The notes beneath the pieces were generated by a model that did no database searches, was not told the origin of the DNA, and worked only from the letters and a program-made list of their open reading frames with translations. The position numbers and the translations under genes are program-made. Positions 14,162 through 61,663 of a stretch of 64,000 nucleotides of DNA are shown here, piece by piece (position 1 is the stretch's first letter; the number at the start of each line of letters is the position of its first letter). The DNA is from Sphingomonas sp. EC-HK361 (lineage in GTDB: Bacteria > Pseudomonadota > Alphaproteobacteria > Sphingomonadales > Sphingomonadaceae): contig NZ_LR701493.1 of assembly GCF_902498785.1 (NCBI RefSeq), positions 86,372 through 150,371 of the forward strand, given 5' to 3'.

Positions 14162-16627
14162 CTAAAGATCGGGCAGCGCCTGTCGCGCCGATCCCCAGCC
14201 GGCGAGCGCGCGCGACGCCGCGCGCTCGATCAGCGTATCGCGGTCGGTGACGGCGAAGATGTTCGCCGCGTCGATATCGCGCAGCTCGCTCCACGATACC
14301 GGCGCCGCGACCGGCGCGCCGCTGCGCGCGCGGGCGGAATAGGGCATGACCGCGGTCGCGCCCCGCTGGTTGCGCAGCCAGTCGATGAAGATGCGGCCCT
14401 TGCGCTTCGCCTTCGACATCGTGGCGACGAAGCGGTCCGGCTCGGCCTGCGCCAGGGCTTGCGCGAAACGGCTCGCGAAGTCCTTGACCGCCGGCCACTC
14501 CGCCTCCGGCGTCAGCGGCACGACGACATGGACGCCCTTGCCCCCCGACAGCATCGGGAAGCTCGTCAGGCCCAGTTCCGCCAGCTGCGCCTTCAGATGC
14601 TCGGCGGCCTTCTTGGTATCGCCGAAATCAAGGCCTTCGTCGGGATCGAGATCGAAGATCATGCGGTCGGGCTTTTCCAGGGCTGCGACCGACGATCCCC
14701 ATCCGTGAAATTCGATCGTCCCCATCTGCACGCACGCGACCAGCCCGTCGGCGTCATCGACGTAAAGATAGTTCTCGGTGCTGCCGTCCTTTTTGCGGAT
14801 CGGCACATGATGGACGTGATCGCCGAACGATCCGGCATCGTGCTTCTGGAAGAAGCAGGCCTTGCCGCGGCCTTGCGGGCATCGGACGAGACTGACCGGG
14901 CGGTTCGCGGTCCACGGCAGCATGATCGGTGCGACGGCCGCGTAATAATCGGCGAGGTCGCCCTTCGTGACCTTGCTGTCAGGGAAGACCAGGCGGTCGC
15001 TGCTGGAGACCTTGACGTGGATTTCGGGGCGCGCGGCGGCAGGCGCAGGTGTTTCCAGCCGCACCTCGTCGGCTGGCTGGTCCTCGCGCAGTCCGAGGAA
15101 ACTCGGATGACGCAGTACGCCATCGGGCGTCGTCTCGGTATAGGCGATCTCTGCAACGAGTTTCGGCGTCACCCAGCGCGCGCCGCGAACCGCCGCGCGC
15201 GGGGCTTCGACGGTGGCCGTCTTGCGGGCCAGCCGCGCGAGCTTCGCCGACAGCGCGTCCATCGACGCTTGGTCGAACCCGGTGCCGACCTTGCCCGCAT
15301 AGATCAGGCCGTCCTCGGCATGCGTGCCGAGCAGCAGCGAGCGAAACCCGCGTTTCTTGTCCGACGGCAGCCACCCGACGATCACGAATTCCTGCCGCCG
15401 CGTGCATTTGACCTTGAGCCAGGCGCGCGTCCGCCGTCCGCGATAGGGCGCGTCGGCGAGTTTCGACACGATGCCCTCGAACCCCTCGCGGCACATCGTC
15501 TCGAACAGCGCTTCGCCCGATCCGGTGACATGCTCGGCATATTGGATCGCGCCGTTTTCGGGCAGGACGGCGCGCAGCCGCTCCTTGCGCTGGACGTTGG
15601 GAAGATCGCTCAGATCCTCGCCATCGAGGGTCAGCAGGTCGAACGCGAAACACGTCATTGCGCGACCTTCGCTGATGGCCACCTTGAGCGTCGAGAAGTC
15701 CGGGCGCCCGTCCTTGAACGCGACGATCTCGCCGTCGATCAGCGCGGACGAGACGGGCAGCGCGGCGGCGGCGTCGGCGATACCCTGAAACTTGTCGGTC
15801 CAGTCGAGTCCGCTCCGGGTGAACACTTTCGCCTTGCCGCCATTCACCGCGATGAGCGCGCGGTAGCCATCATACTTGACCTCGTGAATCCAGCTGGAGC
15901 CTGTGGGGACGGTGTCGACGAGGGTGCAGAGCTGGGGTGAGGTAAACGAAGCAAGCGCCTCCGCCGCCTTTGTGCTCCCGCGAAGGCGGGAGCCCAGTCT
16001 GGATCCCCGCCTTCGCGGGGATACATTGTCAGGGGGCCTGCCCTCCGCAATTTCCTGCATCGTCAGCCCGGTTGCCACGCTCGTCAGCGCCGTTTCGGTG
16101 AGCACATCGGTGCCTCCCGCGTCCGCATCGTCGATCTTTCTCAGCAGCCAGTTCTCGCGCTTCTCCTTGTCCCGCGGCTTCAGGCGAATGAGCAGCCACT
16201 CGCCCTTCATCCGCTCGCCATCGAGCACGAAATGCAGGTGGCCCTTCTCCAGATCCTTCGCGCTCTTGCCCTCGATCGGCGCCCATGTGCCGCGATCCCA
16301 CAACATCACCGTGCCGCCGCCATATTCGCCTTTCGGGATCGTCCCTTCGAAAGTGGCGTAACTGAGCGGATGATCCTCGGTGCGCACCGCGAGCCGCTTT
16401 TCGTCGGGGTCCAGGCTCGGCCCGCGCGTGACCGCCCAGCTTTTCAGGACGCCGTCGAGCTCCAGCCGGAAGTCCCAGTGGAGCCGGGTGGCGTCGTGCT
16501 TCTGCACCATGAAGCGCGCACGTCCTGAGCCTGTCGAAGGGTTCTGGCCGGGCGCTAGCGTGCCGGCCGGTTCGGCGGTCTTCGCAAAGTCGCGCTTGGC
16601 GTTGTAGGTGGAGAGGGGATCTTTCAC
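14162..16627 (-). CDS. ligD: ATP-dependent DNA ligase D, NHEJ
   Basis: 821-residue end-joining enzyme with three domains. The 3'-phosphoesterase (about 1-190) has His44, His50, Asp52 and His86. The ligase has adenylated Lys251 in EVKYDGYR. The C-terminal polymerase/primase domain has an Asp pair in DLDPDEGLDFGD. The start is GTG 16627, with a GGGAGGGGAG ribosome-binding site lying inside a palindromic repeat. Two dispersed repeats are read in frame: about residues 29-38, and about 201-220 in the linker between phosphoesterase and ligase. Ku is the next gene upstream. Confidence 0.95.
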   Translation of the reverse strand: MKDPLSTYNAKRDFAKTAEPAGTLAPGQNPSTGSGRARFMVQKHDATRLHWDFRLELDGVLKSWAVTRGPSLDPDEKRLAVRTEDHPLSYATFEGTIPKGEYGGGTVMLWDRGTWAPIEGKSAKDLEKGHLHFVLDGERMKGEWLLIRLKPRDKEKRENWLLRKIDDADAGGTDVLTETALTSVATGLTMQEIAEGRPPDNVSPRRRGSRLGSRLRGSTKAAEALASFTSPQLCTLVDTVPTGSSWIHEVKYDGYRALIAVNGGKAKVFTRSGLDWTDKFQGIADAAAALPVSSALIDGEIVAFKDGRPDFSTLKVAISEGRAMTCFAFDLLTLDGEDLSDLPNVQRKERLRAVLPENGAIQYAEHVTGSGEALFETMCREGFEGIVSKLADAPYRGRRTRAWLKVKCTRRQEFVIVGWLPSDKKRGFRSLLLGTHAEDGLIYAGKVGTGFDQASMDALSAKLARLARKTATVEAPRAAVRGARWVTPKLVAEIAYTETTPDGVLRHPSFLGLREDQPADEVRLETPAPAAARPEIHVKVSSSDRLVFPDSKVTKGDLADYYAAVAPIMLPWTANRPVSLVRCPQGRGKACFFQKHDAGSFGDHVHHVPIRKKDGSTENYLYVDDADGLVACVQMGTIEFHGWGSSVAALEKPDRMIFDLDPDEGLDFGDTKKAAEHLKAQLAELGLTSFPMLSGGKGVHVVVPLTPEAEWPAVKDFASRFAQALAQAEPDRFVATMSKAKRKGRIFIDWLRNQRGATAVMPYSARARSGAPVAAPVSWSELRDIDAANIFAVTDRDTLIERAASRALAGWGSARQALPDL
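15971..16027. repeat. CCGCGAAGGCGGG palindrome, in frame inside ligD
   Basis: CTCCCGCGAAGGCGGGAG and CCCCGCCTTCGCGGGG flank a short AGTCTGGAT core. It is read on the minus strand as an Arg/Ser/Gly-rich stretch (about LigD residues 201-220) without stop or frameshift. Near-identical intergenic copies lie at 27892, 52581 and 61602. Confidence 0.85.
16519..16546. repeat. CCTGAGCCTGTCGAAGG element, in frame inside ligD
   Basis: CCTGAGCCTGTCGAAGGG is the arm sequence of the elements at 47663 and 60233. Here it is translated as part of NPSTGSGRAR near LigD residue 30, before the phosphoesterase core. Confidence 0.75.
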
Positions 16628-16735
16628 GCTCTCCCCTCCCTGGAAGGGAGGGGCCGGGGGTGGGTGGCCCCGGACGACGCGCTCGCGTGGAGGTCGACCC
16701 ACCCCCAACCCCTCCCTTCCAGGGAGGGGAGCAGA
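16628..16735. repeat. long CTCCCCTCCCTGGAAGGGAG palindrome
   Basis: The left arm (CTCCCCTCCCTGGAAGGGAG) and right arm (CTCCCTTCCAGGGAGGGGAG) are inverted copies, with GGGTGGG/CCCACCC sub-arms. It fills the ku-ligD gap and contributes the ligD ribosome-binding site. Confidence 0.8.
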
Positions 16736-27419: not shown

Positions 27420-27890
27420 GTGCCGGTCACGCTTCACCTCGCGCGCGCCGCCAATGGCGTCATCGGCGTCGACGGACGCCTGCCCTGGCATATCCCGGCG
27501 GACCTGAAGCGCTTCAAGGCGCAGACGATGGGCCGCGCGATGGTGATGGGGCGCAAGACGTTCGAGAGCTTTCCCGCACCACTGCCGGGGCGGCGCCACA
27601 TCGTGCTGACCCGCGATCCAGACTGGACCGCGGCGGGGGCCGAGGTGGCGCACAGCCTCGACGCCGCGCTGGCGCTCGCCGGTCCCGATGCGGCGGTGAT
27701 CGGCGGGGCCGAGGTGTTCGCGCTGGCGCTGCCGCATGCCGAACGGATCGAGCTGACCGAGGTGCACCGCGATTACCCGGGGGATGCGGTCGTGCCGCCC
27801 TTCGCGGGGTGGCGCGAGGTCGCGCGCGAGGACTTTGCGGCGCAGGGCGATCGGCCCGCCTACAGCTTCGCAACGCTGATCCGGGAGTGA
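27420..27890 (+). CDS. folA: dihydrofolate reductase
   Basis: Reduces dihydrofolate to tetrahydrofolate with NADPH. 156 residues from GTG 27420, one base after the thyA stop, so translation is likely coupled. ARAANGVIGVDGRLPWHIPADLK, the MGRKTFES motif and the IGGAEVFALAL segment identify it. It is the trimethoprim target. A palindromic repeat follows its stop directly. Confidence 0.95.
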   Translation: MPVTLHLARAANGVIGVDGRLPWHIPADLKRFKAQTMGRAMVMGRKTFESFPAPLPGRRHIVLTRDPDWTAAGAEVAHSLDAALALAGPDAAVIGGAEVFALALPHAERIELTEVHRDYPGDAVVPPFAGWREVAREDFAAQGDRPAYSFATLIRE

Positions 27891-27891
27891 G

Positions 27892-27948
27892 CGTATCCCC
27901 GCGAAGGCGGGAATCTAGACTGGGTTCCCGCCTTCGCGGGAACACATC
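27892..27948. repeat. CCGCGAAGGCGGG palindrome after folA
   Basis: TCCCCGCGAAGGCGGGAAT and its inverse TTCCCGCCTTCGCGGGAA flank CTAGACTGGG. It follows the folA stop and could act as a transcript-end hairpin. Confidence 0.85.
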
Positions 27949-27992
27949 GGGACGCACTAGCACCGCGCTGTTGCCCCCTCTATAGCCGCGTC

Positions 27993-28928
27993 ATGCAGCG
28001 GCTGGACGGCGGCGCAGCGGTTCCCGACGCCCTTGCCGGCGGGATCGTCGCGCTGGGCAATTTCGACGGATTTCATATCGGGCATCAGGCCGTCATCGGC
28101 CAGGCCGTCGGATGGGCGCGGCGCGAGGGGCGACCCGCGATCGTCGCGACGTTCGATCCGCACCCCGTCCGCCACTTCCGCCCGGACGCGCCACCTTTCC
28201 GCCTGACCACCCTCGATCAACGCGAGCGGCTGTTCGCGAGTGCGGGTGCCGATGCGATGGCGGTGTTCCACTTCGACGCGGGGCTGGCGGCCCTGACCGC
28301 AGAGGCATTCGTCAGCGAACGGCTCGTGGGCGCGCTCCACATCGCAGGCGTGGTGACGGGGTCGGACTTCACCTTCGGCAATCGCAAGGGCGGCACTGTC
28401 GCGACACTCGCCGCGGCAGGTCAGGCGTATGGCTTCGGCGTGGAGACGGTGGGGCCGGTCGCCTTCGATGGCGAGGTCGTCTCCTCGACGCGCATCCGCG
28501 ATGCGCTGAAGGCAGGTGACATGGCGACCGCGGCGAAGCTGCTGACGCGGCCGTTCGCGATCGAAGGAGTTGTCCAGCACGGCGACAAGATCGGCCGCAC
28601 GATCGGCTATCCGACCGCCAATATCGACATGGGCAAGTATCTGCGCCCCGCCTACGGCATCTATGCGGTGCGCGGGCGGCTCCCCGACGGGCGCGTGCTG
28701 GACGGCGCCGCGAACCTCGGCATCCGCCCCAGCTTCGATCCCCCGCGCGAGATGCTGGAGTCGTACTTCTTCGATTTTACCGGCGATCTCTACGGCCAGA
28801 CGATCGCGGTCGAACTGGTGGCGTATCTGCGTCCCGAGGCAAAGTTCGATACGCTGGACGCGCTCACGGCGCAGATGGACGCGGATTGCGCGCAGGCGCG
28901 GCGCGCCTTAAGCGCTCAGCACCCATGA
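27993..28928 (+). CDS. ribF: bifunctional riboflavin kinase / FAD synthetase
   Basis: Makes FMN and then FAD. 311 residues. The N-terminal FAD synthetase domain has GNFDGFHIGHQAVI (a nucleotidyltransferase HIGH-like motif) and GSDFTFGN. The C-terminal riboflavin kinase domain has GRTIGYPTANI and the terminal RPEAKFD segment. The stop overlaps the ileS ATG by four bases, the usual ribF-ileS-lspA order. Confidence 0.95.
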   Translation: MQRLDGGAAVPDALAGGIVALGNFDGFHIGHQAVIGQAVGWARREGRPAIVATFDPHPVRHFRPDAPPFRLTTLDQRERLFASAGADAMAVFHFDAGLAALTAEAFVSERLVGALHIAGVVTGSDFTFGNRKGGTVATLAAAGQAYGFGVETVGPVAFDGEVVSSTRIRDALKAGDMATAAKLLTRPFAIEGVVQHGDKIGRTIGYPTANIDMGKYLRPAYGIYAVRGRLPDGRVLDGAANLGIRPSFDPPREMLESYFFDFTGDLYGQTIAVELVAYLRPEAKFDTLDALTAQMDADCAQARRALSAQHP

Positions 28929-31900
28929 CCGACACCACCGACACCCCTCAGCGCGACTGGCGCGATACCGTCTTCCTGCCGAAGACCGACTTTCCGATGA
29001 AGGCGGGGCTGCCGCAGAAGGAGCCTGCGATCCTCGCCAAGTGGCAGGCGGCGAACCTCTACGACCGGCTGCGCGACGCGCGGCGCGGGCGCGAGAAGTT
29101 CATCCTCCACGACGGCCCGCCCTATGCCAATGGCGACATGCATATCGGGCATGCGCTGAACCATATCCTGAAGGACATGGTGGTTCGCACCCAGTCGCTG
29201 CTGGGCAAGGACGCGCCCTATGTGCCCGGCTGGGACTGCCACGGCCTGCCGATCGAATGGAAGGTCGAGGAGGAGTATCGCAAGAAGAAGCGCAGCAAAG
29301 ATGACGTGCCCGCTGACGAGTTCCGCGCGGAATGCCGGGCCTATGCGCAGAAATGGGTCGATATCCAGCGCGAGCAGCTGAAGCGGCTGGGGATCAATGG
29401 CGACTGGGACCATCCGTATCTGACGATGGATTTTCAGGCGGAGGCGACGATCGTCACCGAGCTGATGAAGTTCGCCGAGAGCGACCAACTTTATCGCGGG
29501 GCGAAGCCGGTGATGTGGTCGCCGGTGGAAAAGACCGCGCTGGCCGAGGCCGAGGTCGAGTATGAGGACATCACGTCGACGCAGATCGATGTGGCGTTCG
29601 AGATCGTCGAGGCGCCGAATGCGCCGGAGCTGGTCGGCGCGCATGCGGTGATCTGGACGACGACGCCGTGGACGATTCCGGTGAACCAGGCGCTCGCTTA
29701 TGGGCCGGAGATTGAGTACCGTCTTTGCCGCAAACGCCAGGATGACGGGCGGCAATATTTAATCGCGCTGGACCTCATTGGTGTGACGGAAGCGCGTGTC
29801 GGCAATCTTGTGCCGATACAGGCGATCAAGGGCTCGCAACTTGCCGGCGCCGTTGCCCGCCACCCGATTTACAACTTCCTCCGTCACCCCGGCGAAGGCC
29901 GGGGTCCCGCTTCTTCTTCTGGCGCGGGCGAAGGCAGCGGGAGCCCAGATCAAGTCCGGAGTGAAGGGGAGTGGGAGCGGGCGCTCGCGTTCTTCGCCAA
30001 GCCTCGCCCATTCCTTCCCGGCGATTTCGTCACCACCGATGCCGGCACCGGCCTCGTCCATATGGCGCCCGATCACGGCGAGGACGATTTTGAGCTTTGC
30101 AAGGCGTACGGCATCGATCCGGTCTTCGCGGTCGAGGCGGACGGGAAATACCGTGCGGACTGGGCGTGGCTCGGCGGGCAGGGGAGCGTCATCAATACCA
30201 GGTTCGTCGCGTCGGACGGGCCGATTTGCTCCGATCTGCGCGCGGCGGGCGGGTTGCTCGCTGCGAGCGACGATTTCCGGCACAGCTATCCGCATAGTTG
30301 GCGGTCGAAGGCGAAGGTGATCTTCCGCTGCACGCCGCAGTGGTTCGTGTCGATGGATCGGCCCCTCTCCCAGCGGGAGAGGGAGGGAGCGGCGGAGCCG
30401 CGGAAGGGTGAGGGCGGCACGGCTGACGTCGCGCACTCGCCCTCACCCCGCGCTGCTGCGCAGCTTGCCCCTCTCCCGCCGGGAGAGGGGATCGACACGC
30501 TGCGCACCCGCGCCATTGCCGCCATCGCCGACACGAAATTCTACCCCGAAAAGGGCCGCAACCGGATCGGGGCGATGGTCGAGGGGCGGCCCGATTGGGT
30601 GCTCTCGCGCCAGCGCGCGTGGGGCGTGCCGATCACGCTGTTCGTCGATCGCAAGACGGGTAAGTATCTGAAGGACCCGGCGGTCAACGCGCGGATTATC
30701 GCGGCTGTGCGTGCGGGCGGGGTGGATGCCTGGTCCGACGCGCGGGCGCAGGAGTATCTGGGCGAGGCCTACCGCGCAGAGGATTTCGAGCGCGTCACCG
30801 ACATTCTCGACGTGTGGTTTGATTCGGGGTGCACCCATGCCTTCGTGCTGGAAAGCGGGCGGTGGCCGGATTTGACGTGGCCGGCGAACCTGTATCTCGA
30901 AGGCTCCGACCAGCATCGCGGGTGGTTCCAGTCGTCGCTCCTCGAAAGCTGCGGGACGCGGGGGCGGGCGCCGTATGATGCAGTGCTGACCCACGGGTTC
31001 ACGATGGATTCGAAGGGCATGAAGATGTCCAAGAGCCTCGGCAACACGATCAATCCGCTCGACCTGATGCGCGATTACGGGGCGGATATCCTGCGGCTGT
31101 GGGCGCTGTCGGTCGATTTCACCGAGGATCACCGGATCGGGAAGGAAATCCTGGCCGGGGTCGCGGACCAGTATCGCAAGCTGCGCAATACATTCCGCTA
31201 TCTGCTGGGGGCGCTTGACGGGTTCAGCAAGGCGGAGCGGGTCGCGCCGGCGGACATGCCGGAGCTGGAGCGGTATGTGCTGCATTTGCTCCGCGCGCTG
31301 GACGTGGAGATGAAGGCGGCGGTCGAGGGGTATGACTTCAACCGCTACGTCCGCGCGCTGACCGATTTCGCGAACGAGGACCTGTCGGCCTTCTTCTTCG
31401 ATATCCGCAAGGATTCGCTCTATTGCGACGCGGCGGACGATCCGAAGCGGCGCGCGTATCGGACGGTGCTCGACACGCTGTTCCACGCGCTGGTGCGCTA
31501 TGCGGCACCGGTGCTCGTCTTCACCGCGGAAGAGGTGTGGCAGACACGCTATCCCGATGCGGAGTCGGTGCATTTGCTGGAGTGGCCGGAGTTGCCCGCT
31601 GCCACGGCGGATGACAATGCCGTCGCCCAGCGCTGGCTCGCCGTGCGCGCGTTGCGGGAACGGGTGACCGAATCGATCGAGCCCTTACGTCGGGAGAAAA
31701 CGGTGCGGTCGAGCCTCGAAGCCGAGGTTGTCGTGCCAGACATGCCGCTGGACGCCGATGCGCTGGCGGAGGCATTCATCGTGGCGAAGGTGTCGGCGGG
31801 CGATAGCGTCGATGTGATCCGCACCGACTTCCTCAAATGCGGCCGCTGCTGGCGGCATCTGCCCGAAGTGAGCGAGGACGGCGCGCTGTGTGCCCGGTGC

Positions 31901-31930
31901 GAGAGCGTCGTGAGCGAGGTGGTCGCGTGA
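28925..31930 (+). CDS. ileS: isoleucyl-tRNA synthetase carrying two repeat-encoded insertions
   Basis: Charges tRNA-Ile and edits misactivated valine. 1001 residues (E. coli IleS has 938). HIGH at 73-76, KMSKS at 700-704 and C-terminal zinc cysteines (CGRCW and CARCE) are intact, so the enzyme should be functional. Two dispersed palindromes are translated in frame. One is about residues 320-348 inside the editing domain; the other is residues 480-522, just before the GRNRIGAMVEGRPDWVLSRQRAWG catalytic segment. Both leave the frame unbroken. The start overlaps ribF, and lspA overlaps the end (GTGA). Confidence 0.96.
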   Translation: MTDTTDTPQRDWRDTVFLPKTDFPMKAGLPQKEPAILAKWQAANLYDRLRDARRGREKFILHDGPPYANGDMHIGHALNHILKDMVVRTQSLLGKDAPYVPGWDCHGLPIEWKVEEEYRKKKRSKDDVPADEFRAECRAYAQKWVDIQREQLKRLGINGDWDHPYLTMDFQAEATIVTELMKFAESDQLYRGAKPVMWSPVEKTALAEAEVEYEDITSTQIDVAFEIVEAPNAPELVGAHAVIWTTTPWTIPVNQALAYGPEIEYRLCRKRQDDGRQYLIALDLIGVTEARVGNLVPIQAIKGSQLAGAVARHPIYNFLRHPGEGRGPASSSGAGEGSGSPDQVRSEGEWERALAFFAKPRPFLPGDFVTTDAGTGLVHMAPDHGEDDFELCKAYGIDPVFAVEADGKYRADWAWLGGQGSVINTRFVASDGPICSDLRAAGGLLAASDDFRHSYPHSWRSKAKVIFRCTPQWFVSMDRPLSQREREGAAEPRKGEGGTADVAHSPSPRAAAQLAPLPPGEGIDTLRTRAIAAIADTKFYPEKGRNRIGAMVEGRPDWVLSRQRAWGVPITLFVDRKTGKYLKDPAVNARIIAAVRAGGVDAWSDARAQEYLGEAYRAEDFERVTDILDVWFDSGCTHAFVLESGRWPDLTWPANLYLEGSDQHRGWFQSSLLESCGTRGRAPYDAVLTHGFTMDSKGMKMSKSLGNTINPLDLMRDYGADILRLWALSVDFTEDHRIGKEILAGVADQYRKLRNTFRYLLGALDGFSKAERVAPADMPELERYVLHLLRALDVEMKAAVEGYDFNRYVRALTDFANEDLSAFFFDIRKDSLYCDAADDPKRRAYRTVLDTLFHALVRYAAPVLVFTAEEVWQTRYPDAESVHLLEWPELPAATADDNAVAQRWLAVRALRERVTESIEPLRREKTVRSSLEAEVVVPDMPLDADALAEAFIVAKVSAGDSVDVIRTDFLKCGRCWRHLPEVSEDGALCARCESVVSEVVA
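29882..29966. repeat. CGTCACCCCGGCGAAGGCCGG palindrome, in frame inside ileS
   Basis: CACCCCGGCGAAGGCCGGGG is a clear hairpin arm, here read as RHPGEGRGP from IleS residue 320. The second half is decayed and continues as a Ser/Gly/Glu-rich stretch. The exact right boundary is uncertain. Confidence 0.8.
30362..30490. repeat. CCCTCTCCC...GGGAGAGGG palindrome, in frame inside ileS
   Basis: CCCCTCTCCCAGCGGGAGAG at the left and CCCCTCTCCCGCCGGGAGAG at the right enclose GGGTGAGGGC and GCCCTCACCC sub-arms. It is 129 bases, exactly 43 codons, and adds IleS residues 480-522. Confidence 0.88.
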
Positions 31931-32439
31931 CCCGCGCGATGCCCCGCCTCGGCCTGATGCTCGCGGGCGCCATCTTCGTGCTCGATCAGCTGGTGAAGTG
32001 GATCGTCACCGGGCCGCTCGGCATCGCCACGCTGGGTGATGCGAAGACGCTGCTGCCGATCTTCGACCTGCGTTTCGTCCCCAATATCGGCGTCTCGCTC
32101 GGGCTGATTCGGGCGGACAGCGACGCGATGCGCTGGGCGCTCGTGGTGCTCACCGCGGCGATTGCCATCGGCGTGGCGGTGTGGATGTTCCGTGAGCCGC
32201 GGCGCGGCGATCAGGTCGCGCTCGGGCTGGTGCTCGGCGGGGCGCTCGGCAATATCGTCGACCGGGTTCGGTTCGGCTATGTCGTCGATTTCGCCGACCT
32301 GCACTTCGGCGAATGGCGCCCGTTTCTCGTCTTCAACCTGGCCGATGCGGCGATTACCATCGGCGTGCTCATCCTGCTTGCGCGCGCGCTTCTGATCCGC
32401 GACAAGCCGCGTGCCCCTTCGGAGAATGTGAATGCGTAA
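31927..32439 (+). CDS. lspA: lipoprotein signal peptidase II
   Basis: Inner-membrane aspartyl protease that removes signal peptides from lipidated prolipoproteins. 170 residues from GTG 31927, which overlaps the ileS stop. Four membrane segments are visible. The catalytic Asp residues lie in GNIVDRVRFG and FNLADAAI. It is followed, with eight bases of overlap, by a lipoprotein gene that is itself a likely substrate. Confidence 0.94.
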   Translation: MTRAMPRLGLMLAGAIFVLDQLVKWIVTGPLGIATLGDAKTLLPIFDLRFVPNIGVSLGLIRADSDAMRWALVVLTAAIAIGVAVWMFREPRRGDQVALGLVLGGALGNIVDRVRFGYVVDFADLHFGEWRPFLVFNLADAAITIGVLILLARALLIRDKPRAPSENVNA

Positions 32440-32911
32440 GACCGTCCTCATCGCAACCGGCCTCGCCGCCGCGGCGCTGCTCTCCGGTTGCGGCAAGCGC
32501 GGCTACGACCGTGCGCGCCCCGACGAGTTCGCGGTCGCGCGGCAGGCGCCGCTCATCATCCCGCCCGATTTCGCGCTGGTCCCGCCGCAGCCGGGCGCCG
32601 CGCGCGTGCAGGCTGGCAACCCGCAGCAGGATGCGCTGAGCGCGCTCTTCGGCGACAATACAGGCCGCTCGGGCGCCGAGCGTGCGACGCTGAACGAGGC
32701 GGGCGACGCCGATGCGGGCATCCGCTCCGATGTGGGCGATCCGGGCACCAATGTCGTCGACAAGGGCCAGACGACGCGCGACATCATCGCAGCGCCGCAG
32801 GGCGACGGTCAGGATGCCCGCGCGGCGGTGCCGCAGGCTGGGGCGGCGCCTACGCCAGCTCCCACGCCTGCTCCGACGCCCACGCCTGCCCCAACAACGA
32901 CGCCGCAATAA
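32432..32911 (+). CDS. DUF3035 family lipoprotein
   Basis: 159 residues. The lipoprotein signal MRKTVLIATGLAAAALLSGC has Cys20 in LSGC. RPDEFAVARQAPLIIPPDF and PPQPGA are the DUF3035 hallmark. A polar middle and a Pro/Ala/Thr tail (APTPAPTPAPT) follow, which could span the periplasm or cell wall. The family is typical of alphaproteobacteria and of unknown function, and is often found beside lspA and ileS. Confidence 0.85.
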   Translation: MRKTVLIATGLAAAALLSGCGKRGYDRARPDEFAVARQAPLIIPPDFALVPPQPGAARVQAGNPQQDALSALFGDNTGRSGAERATLNEAGDADAGIRSDVGDPGTNVVDKGQTTRDIIAAPQGDGQDARAAVPQAGAAPTPAPTPAPTPTPAPTTTPQ

Positions 32912-32958
32912 GCTCGCGTCTGTCGGACGATGGTTCGGACAGCTGAATAGAGCGCCAC

Positions 32959-33042
32959 CGTGCTCCCGCGCACGCGGGAGCCCAGAGTTTCAAACGGTGG
33001 CGCCTGTTGCCCTGGACTCCCGCCTGCGCGGGAGTACAATTG
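32959..33042. repeat. TGCTCCCGCGCACGCGGGAG palindrome pair
   Basis: CTCCCGCGCACGCGGGAG and CTCCCGCCTGCGCGGGAG, 40 bases apart, form a variant of the CCGCGAAGGCGGG family. It sits after the DUF3035 gene, in the 251-base gap before the porin. Confidence 0.75.
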
Positions 33043-46100: not shown

Positions 46101-46138
46101 GCTTGCCCCTCCCTGGCAGGGAGGGGTTGGGGTGGGTC
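46101..46138. repeat. CCCCTCCCTGGCAGGGAGGGG palindrome
   Basis: CCCTCCCTGGCAGGGAGGG is a near-perfect hairpin followed by GGGGTGGGT. It is the same family as 16628-16735. It begins the 320-base gap 46094-46413, which holds this element, a possible decayed minus-strand reading frame (46150-46221) and another repeat. Confidence 0.75.
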
Positions 46139-47662: not shown

Positions 47663-47741
47663 TCCGTTCGCCCTGAGCTTGTCGAAGGGCGGCCTGCACG
47701 GCGCCCGGCGGGCGGGCTTCGACAGGCTCAGCCCGAACGGG
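47663..47741. repeat. CCTGAGCTTGTCGAAGGGCG element
   Basis: TTCGCCCTGAGCTTGTCGAAGG and the inverse CTTCGACAGGCTCAGCCCGAA flank a GC-rich core, immediately upstream of ilvA. Transcripts of ilvA must start within or beyond it. Confidence 0.8.
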
Positions 47742-52469: not shown

Positions 52470-52580
52470 GTCTCTTCGTCACCTTTTCGACACAATGCGT
52501 GGCCTCCCTATAGCGAAAGGCAGCGCGGACGCGAGGAAATACGTTTGGGGCGCGGGGTTGGATGCGGGAGCGACAGCCGA

Positions 52581-52637
52581 TGTGCTCCCGCGAAGGCGGG
52601 GACCCAGGCTGGGCTCCCGCCTTCGCGGGAGCACAAT
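52581..52637. repeat. CCGCGAAGGCGGG palindrome between lpdA and the flavoprotein gene
   Basis: GTGCTCCCGCGAAGGCGGGG and CTCCCGCCTTCGCGGGAGCAC form a long inverted pair after the lpdA stop (minus strand). It probably ends or stabilises that transcript. Confidence 0.85.
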
Positions 52638-60223: not shown

Positions 60224-60232
60224 CGCACTTCC

Positions 60233-60331
60233 CCGTTCGTGCTGAGCCTGTCGAAGCACCGTCCTGTCTTCTTCCTGAATTCGGCGGAAGAAGAAAGCAG
60301 CCCTTCGACAGGCTCAGGGCAAACGGAATGG
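60233..60331. repeat. CGTTCGTGCTGAGCCTGTCGAAGC element
   Basis: GTTCGTGCTGAGCCTGTCGA and the inverse CCCTTCGACAGGCTCAGGGC flank a 50-base core. It lies between the divergent extensin and serC genes. The rest of the 60224-60435 gap holds only the candidate serC hairpin. Confidence 0.8.
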
Positions 60332-61601: not shown

Positions 61602-61663
61602 TTTGTGCTCCCGCGAAGGCGGGAGCCCAGTCTGGATCCCCGCCGTCGCGGGGATACATTTCT
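61602..61663. repeat. CCGCGAAGGCGGG palindrome between serC and serA
   Basis: GTGCTCCCGCGAAGGCGGGAG and CCCCGCCGTCGCGGGG flank AGTCTGGAT. It fills most of the serC-serA gap and may alter expression of serA relative to serC. Confidence 0.85.

Follow-up and report, generated by a model that had tools for sequence, protein, structure and literature searches.

The window, a stretch of 64,000 nucleotides from Sphingomonas sp. EC-HK361, carries an isoleucyl-tRNA synthetase gene, ileS, whose frame is intact and which contains two palindromic inserts, termed here site 1 and site 2, together with a hypervariable slot in the editing domain. The features are as follows.

28925..31930, + strand: ileS, isoleucyl-tRNA synthetase, 1001 aa, frame intact
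29720..29833, + strand: slot for a hypervariable cassette in the editing domain (IleS residues 266-303), directly ahead of site 1
29882..29966, + strand: site 1, two CGTC-type palindromes placed head to head, the second of them worn, at codons 320-348 in the editing (CP1) domain
29882..29908, + strand: first CGTC unit of site 1, with tag, 8-bp stem, GAAG loop and CCC tail (read from the sequence; class definition from PMC3733652)
29939..29966, - strand: second unit of site 1, inverted and worn, CGTC-type (by eye against relatives L043 and L071)
30362..30490, + strand: site 2, an inverted-repeat element of 129 bp at codons 480-522, lying after the editing domain and ahead of the second half of the catalytic domain
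30362..30383, + strand: left terminal hairpin of site 2, CCCCTCTCCCAGCGGGAGAGGG (inverted repeat)
30469..30490, + strand: right terminal hairpin of site 2, CCCTCTCCCGCCGGGAGAGGGG (inverted repeat)

Counted from the first base of codon 320, site 1 measures 85 nt. Its first unit consists of the tag CGTC (29882-29885), an 8-bp stem, ACCCCGGC/GCCGGGGT, at 29886-29893/29898-29905, a 4-nt loop, GAAG, and the tail CCC; the motif CACCCCGGCGAAGGCCGGGG matches site 1 with 0 mismatches, where 0.01 chance matches are expected in 64 kb. The second unit differs from the intact unit of L043 and L071 at 4 of 28 positions (by eye). An RNA fold of site 1 together with its flanks (29870-30000) has a z-score of -0.9, and 30 of 200 shuffles are equally stable. 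Site 2 has arms of 22 nt each that are 95% complementary and a predicted RNA fold of -113.7 kcal/mol (z -8.9), which none of 200 shuffles equalled. Its terminal motif is matched 4 times, at 2 places on both strands, where 0.09 matches would be expected. Both inserts are in frame and free of stop codons. The initial annotation had described two dispersed-type palindromes in frame inside ileS, the second of exactly 129 bp over codons 480-522, in a gene with intact signature residues, and the sequence bears out this anatomy: the arms delimit the second stretch as stated, and the IleS motifs HIGH, KMSKS and the C-terminal CxxC (zinc) cysteines are all found in the translation.

In the solved IleRS 8c9e, the aligned stretches are separated by 6 and 3 residues, against 47 and 49 in the window protein. 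An AlphaFold model of the latter (mean pLDDT 79.3, pTM 0.70, 51 sequences) falls below a pLDDT of 50 over most of each insert (residues 324-344 and 490-521); this would agree with flexible loops, as weak evidence, because the conserved IleS stretches 195-217 and 452-470 are equally low (also below 50).

The gene was compared with those of 80 sphingomonad loci. A scan of genome contigs had confirmed 589 stretches, of which these are the best 80; with the window they give 81 ileS genes (loci are numbered L and genomes G below). A gene was accepted when its frame exceeded 700 aa and held a KMSKS motif, and each of the 80 loci has one. The frame is open in all 80 relatives (best 80 of 589), including every repeat-bearing gene, that is, 27 labelled at site 2 and 7 with long site-1 loops, window included. 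These seven of the 81 (window plus best 80 of 589) are the window, L004, L013, L020, L043, L071 and L073; L043 and L071 hold a homologous pair at site 1. The gap in relatives that the initial annotation had proposed to look for is present, as 74 of the 81 proteins (window plus best 80 of 589) show 11-14 aa between the bounds of site 1, compared with 46 in the window, and the opposite possibility that it named, residues common to all sphingomonad IleS, did not hold in the same 81-gene alignment.

Site 2 varies far more. Between conserved anchors it spans 3-55 aa, with 32 distinct lengths in the 81 genes (window plus best 80 of 589). Its occupants, labelled by eye from the DNA, are palindromic repeats of three unrelated superfamilies in 27 of the 81 (same set) and 13 non-repeat types in 39, one of which (L060) may hold a remnant palindrome, while 15 are empty. 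Superfamily S occupies 17 genes, with CCCTCTCC, CTCCCGC and CTCCCC hairpin pairs and including a worn element in L042 and a one-sided one in L068; superfamily D, of TCGAC/GCTCAG type, occupies nine; and superfamily E, a CGTC pair, is found in L079 alone. On a quick IleS tree with SH-aLRT support only, built from 781 core columns that exclude the hot loops, site 2 changes 9 times when scored as repeat or none, 15 times as S, D, E or none, and 36 times over all 17 occupant types. Among the labelled rows, S and D show no clustering beyond that of shuffled labels, since 105 (S) and 175 (D) of 500 shuffles scored as low. The single pair of insertions envisaged by the initial annotation thus gives way, at site 2, to a slot refilled repeatedly across sphingomonads. 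Mainly in Novosphingobium and Erythrobacteraceae loci, the same position is taken by conserved non-repeat loop types, which also change often; type 0, for instance, comprises 17 rows with 10 tree changes.

Comparison of sister species brings the turnover into focus. L050 (S) and L076 (D) are 98% identical in DNA on the left and 98% on the right of site 2; the corresponding values are 100% and 96% for L061 (D) and L063 (S), 94% and 94% for L055 (D) and L063 (S), 94% and 96% for L055 (D) and L074 (S), and 91% and 84% for L068 (S) and L079 (E). In L006 an S pair fills the slot that is empty in L004 and L012; here the left flank is 96-98% identical and the right flank 78%. Swaps between such similar flanks indicate that the content of site 2 turns over and its surroundings largely stay. 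Elements also decay, as seen in L042 against L046, where the site-2 element is worn down. Further inverted repeats occur in the ileS frame of L043, L054, L063 and L073 at about codons 4, 878, 298 and 932, respectively, counted from the trimmed frame start, so that the one in L043 may precede the true start.

Repeats related to the two elements lie scattered through the genomes of several relatives, though not of every one. The 129-bp element gives 44 rows, both strands counted, in Sphingomonas changbaiensis (G001), with 15 near-full-length places, one of them its own ileS; G002 gives 5 rows (2 in its own ileS) and G003 gives 2 rows at one place. Two of the five relatives' genomes searched, G004 and G375, gave 0 matches, and G375 is the genome of L020, whose IleS is nearest to that of the window. 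The site-1 pair of L043 gives 15, 18 and 27 rows in the three relatives' genomes searched, counts to which the ileS copy, partial units and hits to one place on both strands contribute. For the core palindrome of site 2, four genomes have 124, 37, 55 and 6 places, and a reversed-pattern control has 0. How these repeats move was approached through candidate enzymes and insertion scars. A Y1/RAYT-type transposase gene (Y1_Tnp, PF01797) was found in 2 of 12 relatives' genomes, which makes RAYT a doubtful mover. A candidate direct repeat of at least 4 nt (ATCG) flanks the element of the window and none of the other 13 examined, compared with 6% of random positions. In 55 copies outside genes, the stretches between the outer motifs have on average 4.2 of the 6 frames open, and a single copy has no open frame, which helps explain survival in frame.

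Other repeats were noted in passing. The window itself holds four copies of a 59-nt hairpin pair of CTCCCGCGAAGGCGGGAG type (15969-16027, 27890-27948, 52579-52637 and 61602-61660), the other three being 75-98% identical to the first. It also holds an inverted pair, CTCCCCTCCCTGGAAGGGAGGGG, at 16631-16731 with a related copy at 46106-46132, assigned by eye to superfamily S, as is site 2, as well as TCGAC/GCTCAG-type repeats, by eye of superfamily D, at 16525-16555, 47701-47741 and 60232-60317. In a plasmid collection, the 129-bp element matched 17 records, all from Deinococcus; among the 15 matches listed, these stretches are 81-87% identical to its first 40-48%, a likeness that may be due to chance, convergence or kinship.

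Comparable insertions are found in other genes. Palindromic pairs of types S and D (by eye) occupy one loop of ValS in 7 of 18 sister genomes (L004, L006, L050, L055, L061, L074 and L076), and pairs of CGTC, S-like and D types (by eye) occupy one loop of TruB in 9 of 17 (loci L215-L231); L220 and L228 are two further, doubtful cases, and six are short. In IleS, ValS and TruB alike, unrelated families recur at a single loop. LeuS, judged by match spans only, measures 2469-2538 bp in 15 of 18 genomes, with two longer (G010, 2646; G018, 2565) and one partial (G004). In samples of G008, G010 and G017, with a coding fraction of 83-86%, 16 doublets lie inside called genes and 55 outside, and ten in-gene doublets within 400 kb of G010 make it clear that IleS is not the sole host. 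Hosts besides IleS include HrpB (in G010 and G017), LigA, PyrD, GlyS and a PDH-E2-like gene, and in other samples DnaE and GspE-like and FabK-like genes; the GspE-, FabK- and PDH-E2-like matches fall below curated cut-offs. Doublets ahead of GroES and HisH were discarded as lying outside the matched domain, probably upstream of the true start, and the doublet-bearing proteins of L093, L101 and L132, along with L189:17720-19027, have no NCBIfam match and may be miscalled. The overlap with the host list in PMC3733652 is notable, covering DNA ligase, RNA helicases, tRNA synthetases, TruB and DnaE.

Several counts bear on whether IleS is favoured. With family patterns partly learned from IleS itself, all 19 in-gene doublets at the 80 loci (best 80 of 589) fall in IleS (16 flagged by script; L045, L068 and L079 by coordinates), and 25 doublets lie outside genes. 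A family-blind count of inverted repeats with arms of at least 13 finds 13, spread over 10 genes, in the 240 kb of IleS; the other genes of these loci, 684 kb in all, have 4, which makes a 9.3-fold excess in IleS. With arms of at least 14 the counts are 10 and 2, and with arms of at least 12 they are 19 and 19, or 2.9-fold. With cruder gene calls, which include many doubtful ORFs, the counts are 15 for 238 kb of IleS and 31 for 743 kb of other genes. In the genome samples, 17 repeats with arms of at least 13 were counted in 1246 kb, one in IleS and one in TruB of G008. Among 58 genomes of the class of G008, an IleS profile match split at 272-286 is limited to G008 and G115, both of the sphingomonad family; IleS of the same class is split elsewhere in G320, G328 and G352, that of G363 is partial, and G369 yields only a ValS-like match. 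A strict-rule scan of sister genomes flagged IleS (twice) and TruB in G010/G017, and TruB with four weak segments (inside identity 0.30-0.33), IleS remaining unflagged, in G008/G017; nothing was flagged in the 41 ortholog pairs of G008/G010. The excess of in-gene repeats in IleS is real but not exclusive.

Immediately before site 1, residues 266-303 look like a cassette subject to exchange. In the window and L001-L080 (best 80 of 589), 86 IleS pairs share a core identity of at least 0.93, and their cassette identity is below 0.4 in 81 and at least 0.7 in 5. Core and cassette identity correlate at 0.08, against 0.46 for two core parts with each other. At the DNA level, the cassette matches over 70% of its length in 28 of 3240 pairs and at all in 104, against 3165 for the flank, and 15 of 16 hand-picked sister pairs are without a cassette match. 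Close pairs that keep it are L015/L018, L023/L037, L027/L059 and L038/L053. Its mean GC3 is 0.66, compared with 0.85-0.86 around it, and is below both flanks in 65 of 81 genes; in L051 and L064 the cassette is 100% identical in protein and 95% in DNA, so it seems constrained while retained. The L006 cassette is matched in 11 of 298 family genomes, at 75% identity or less. Cassette types also recur in less related species (L042/L079, L006/L058 and L043/L077/L078). ValS (loci L157-L174) shows mutually unrelated replacements at about residues 437-466, in two loops, in 7 of 18 genes, with lower GC (by eye), the segment being conserved in the others. Inversion was rejected as the cause of the cassette differences, 1 of 104 hits being on the minus strand. 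In searches for silent copies, tblastn of the L063, L074 and L055 cassettes against own-genome samples of 0.4-0.8 Mb returned ileS and weak hits (for L063, where a CGTC repeat pair lies within the cassette, E 3.6e-5 or worse; for L074, E 0.29). The L076 cassette, the only one sought in its own whole genome, was run with its flanks against five whole genomes and returned its own ileS, three other ileS genes and one 30% hit with E 0.42. Our guess is that the cassette is exchanged with distant IleS alleles, perhaps under diversifying selection. An unlikely but wider reading is that sphingomonad IleRS, and ValRS, are pressed to alter surface patches, for example by a binding phage protein, toxin or inhibitor; if so, swaps to unrelated cassettes, most of them lower in GC, would go together with refilling of the loops at 320-348 and 478-525 by cheap palindromic filler, and selfish repeats would be raw material in an arms race over an essential enzyme.

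Several explanations compete with repeated insertion of selfish repeats. The inserts could have spread through exchange of ileS segments between species, which we regard as possible though somewhat doubtful. It would account for a window site-1 insert that is 86 and 83% identical in DNA to those of Sphingobium L043 and L071, spacer included, where residues 526-990 reach 63-72%, for the clear exchange of residues 266-303, and for the rejection of the site-1 CGTC rows as one clade (AU p 3e-102, the group having been named after the tree was seen). However, over residues 30-264 the window likewise reaches 78-88% identity with L043 and L071, which points to a modest mosaic, and at site 2 the flanks of the swapped sisters mostly match gene-wide similarity, with the exception of the right flank of L006 (78%), so that exchange would have to be limited to the loop. 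Nearly even weight, falling just short of it, is given to the idea that the loop is simply permissive, IleS being untargeted and any long loop of a long essential gene faring alike at such repeat density. The doublets in HrpB, LigA, PyrD, GlyS, DnaE and the GspE-, FabK- and PDH-E2-like genes fit this, as does the variation of insertion points inside the loop by several codons between ileS genes, but the 9.3-fold excess in IleS, the nearly constant length of LeuS and the split at 272-286 in just 2 of 58 genomes of the class, both of the sphingomonad family, do not.

Two further readings concern what becomes of the transcript. Site 2 could be a selected mRNA hairpin, a signal for pausing or stability at the point where the editing domain gives way to the remainder; its very stable predicted fold (-113.7 kcal/mol, z -8.9) and its position at a domain boundary are in keeping with such a role. 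A selected signal is nonetheless improbable in our view, given that site 2 is empty in 15 and non-repeat in 39 of the 81 genes (window plus best 80 of 589), that elements wear down (L042 against L046), that site 1 folds no better than shuffles, and that Rfam has no match at 27500-33000 of the window. Least credible of all is that the insert is spliced out or bypassed by the ribosome and so is absent from the protein: supporting observations were not found, and self-complementary ends could in principle join the flanks, but every insert has an open frame and the loops of L055 and L061 differ in length by one codon, neither of which removal would need.

E. litoralis and S. alaskensis, which bear on the relation to known repeat systems, are sphingomonads. 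Intragenic REPs were reported in 2013 in tRNA synthetases and TruB of these two species, in a paper (PMC3733652) which also assigns RPE-6 and RPE-4 of R. conorii to CGTC-1 and CGTC-4, names DnaE and TruB as R. conorii RPE hosts, reports no dedicated transposase for CGTC REPs, and describes one case of different REPs at about one site, recB of two Xanthomonas. RPE are in-frame selfish palindromic DNA in protein genes (PMC10969869). The initial annotation had likened the inserts to these Rickettsia elements in a different lineage and with different repeats. Its likeness stands, in that palindromes lie in frame in an intact essential gene and most relatives have no counterpart there, as in published descriptions of RPE; its two qualifications fare less well, since site 1 has the CGTC-1 form to which RPE-6 belongs and intragenic REPs were already on record in sphingomonads (PMC3733652). 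Its interpretation is thus partly supported. Going by the descriptions of RPE, the two systems share palindromes of about 100-150 bp in frame in alphaproteobacterial genes, and recurring hosts, whereas here the bearers are free-living sphingomonads, three unrelated superfamilies are involved and one loop is refilled between sister species.

The first unit of site 1 resembles a CGTC-1 REP, by the class description in PMC3733652, in its unpaired CGTC tag, 8-bp stem and 4-nt loop and in a 3-nt unpaired tail, although this is CCC and not the usual CCA; the head-to-head dimer is likewise shared, its inverted unit (29939-29966) being worn in the window and intact in L043 and L071. Stem pairs 1 and 2, almost invariably A-T in that description, are A-T then C-G in the window and both A-T in L043 and L071. 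Site 2, in contrast, is without a CGTC tag, and against the one recB case in the CGTC REP paper stand one loop in each of three genes and replacement between sister species. GTAG REP/RAYT systems (REPtrons) are similar as short, dispersed, mostly extragenic hairpins in inverted pairs, but GTAG is absent from the ends of both window elements. Site 2 is also MITE-like in its size of about 130 bp, its 22-nt terminal inverted repeats (95% complementary) and its near-full-length relatives dispersed in S. changbaiensis G001, and differs in that a consistent target-site duplication was not seen in the 14 elements examined; the search for a parent transposon covered PF01797.

On the sequence evidence, the likely explanation is that two palindromic repeats, both non-autonomous and belonging to families dispersed among several sphingomonads, were inserted in frame in ileS and are translated. 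The repeats would be moved in trans by a transposase acting on their hairpin ends, which is suggested because neither a self-encoded gene nor a clear target duplication was seen. A GC-rich, mostly stop-free element of suitable length could then become a flexible linker rich in G, E, R and P; placed in a surface loop, it would leave folding undisturbed and be retained, and later wear or overwriting would produce slot turnover between sister species. Site 1 may be a fresh insertion here or may have arrived with a recombined ileS segment. The inserts are most likely tolerated selfish DNA that has become protein, and not a new function.

The presence of selfish palindromes in frame in an essential enzyme is confirmed in its anatomy and is of a kind already known; one slot refilled by unrelated families is, as far as found, new. 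Among the titles and abstract openings that the literature search returned, neither recurrent repeats at one IleS loop nor a hypervariable IleRS editing domain was found, and the turnover at a fixed slot, together with the exchanged neighbouring cassette, goes beyond the Rickettsia literature found. In a culturable, free-living lineage, selfish palindromes have joined an essential enzyme many times, with at least nine gains or losses at site 2, and the empty sites and sister swaps make an old question testable: whether such repeats build new protein or are merely tolerated.
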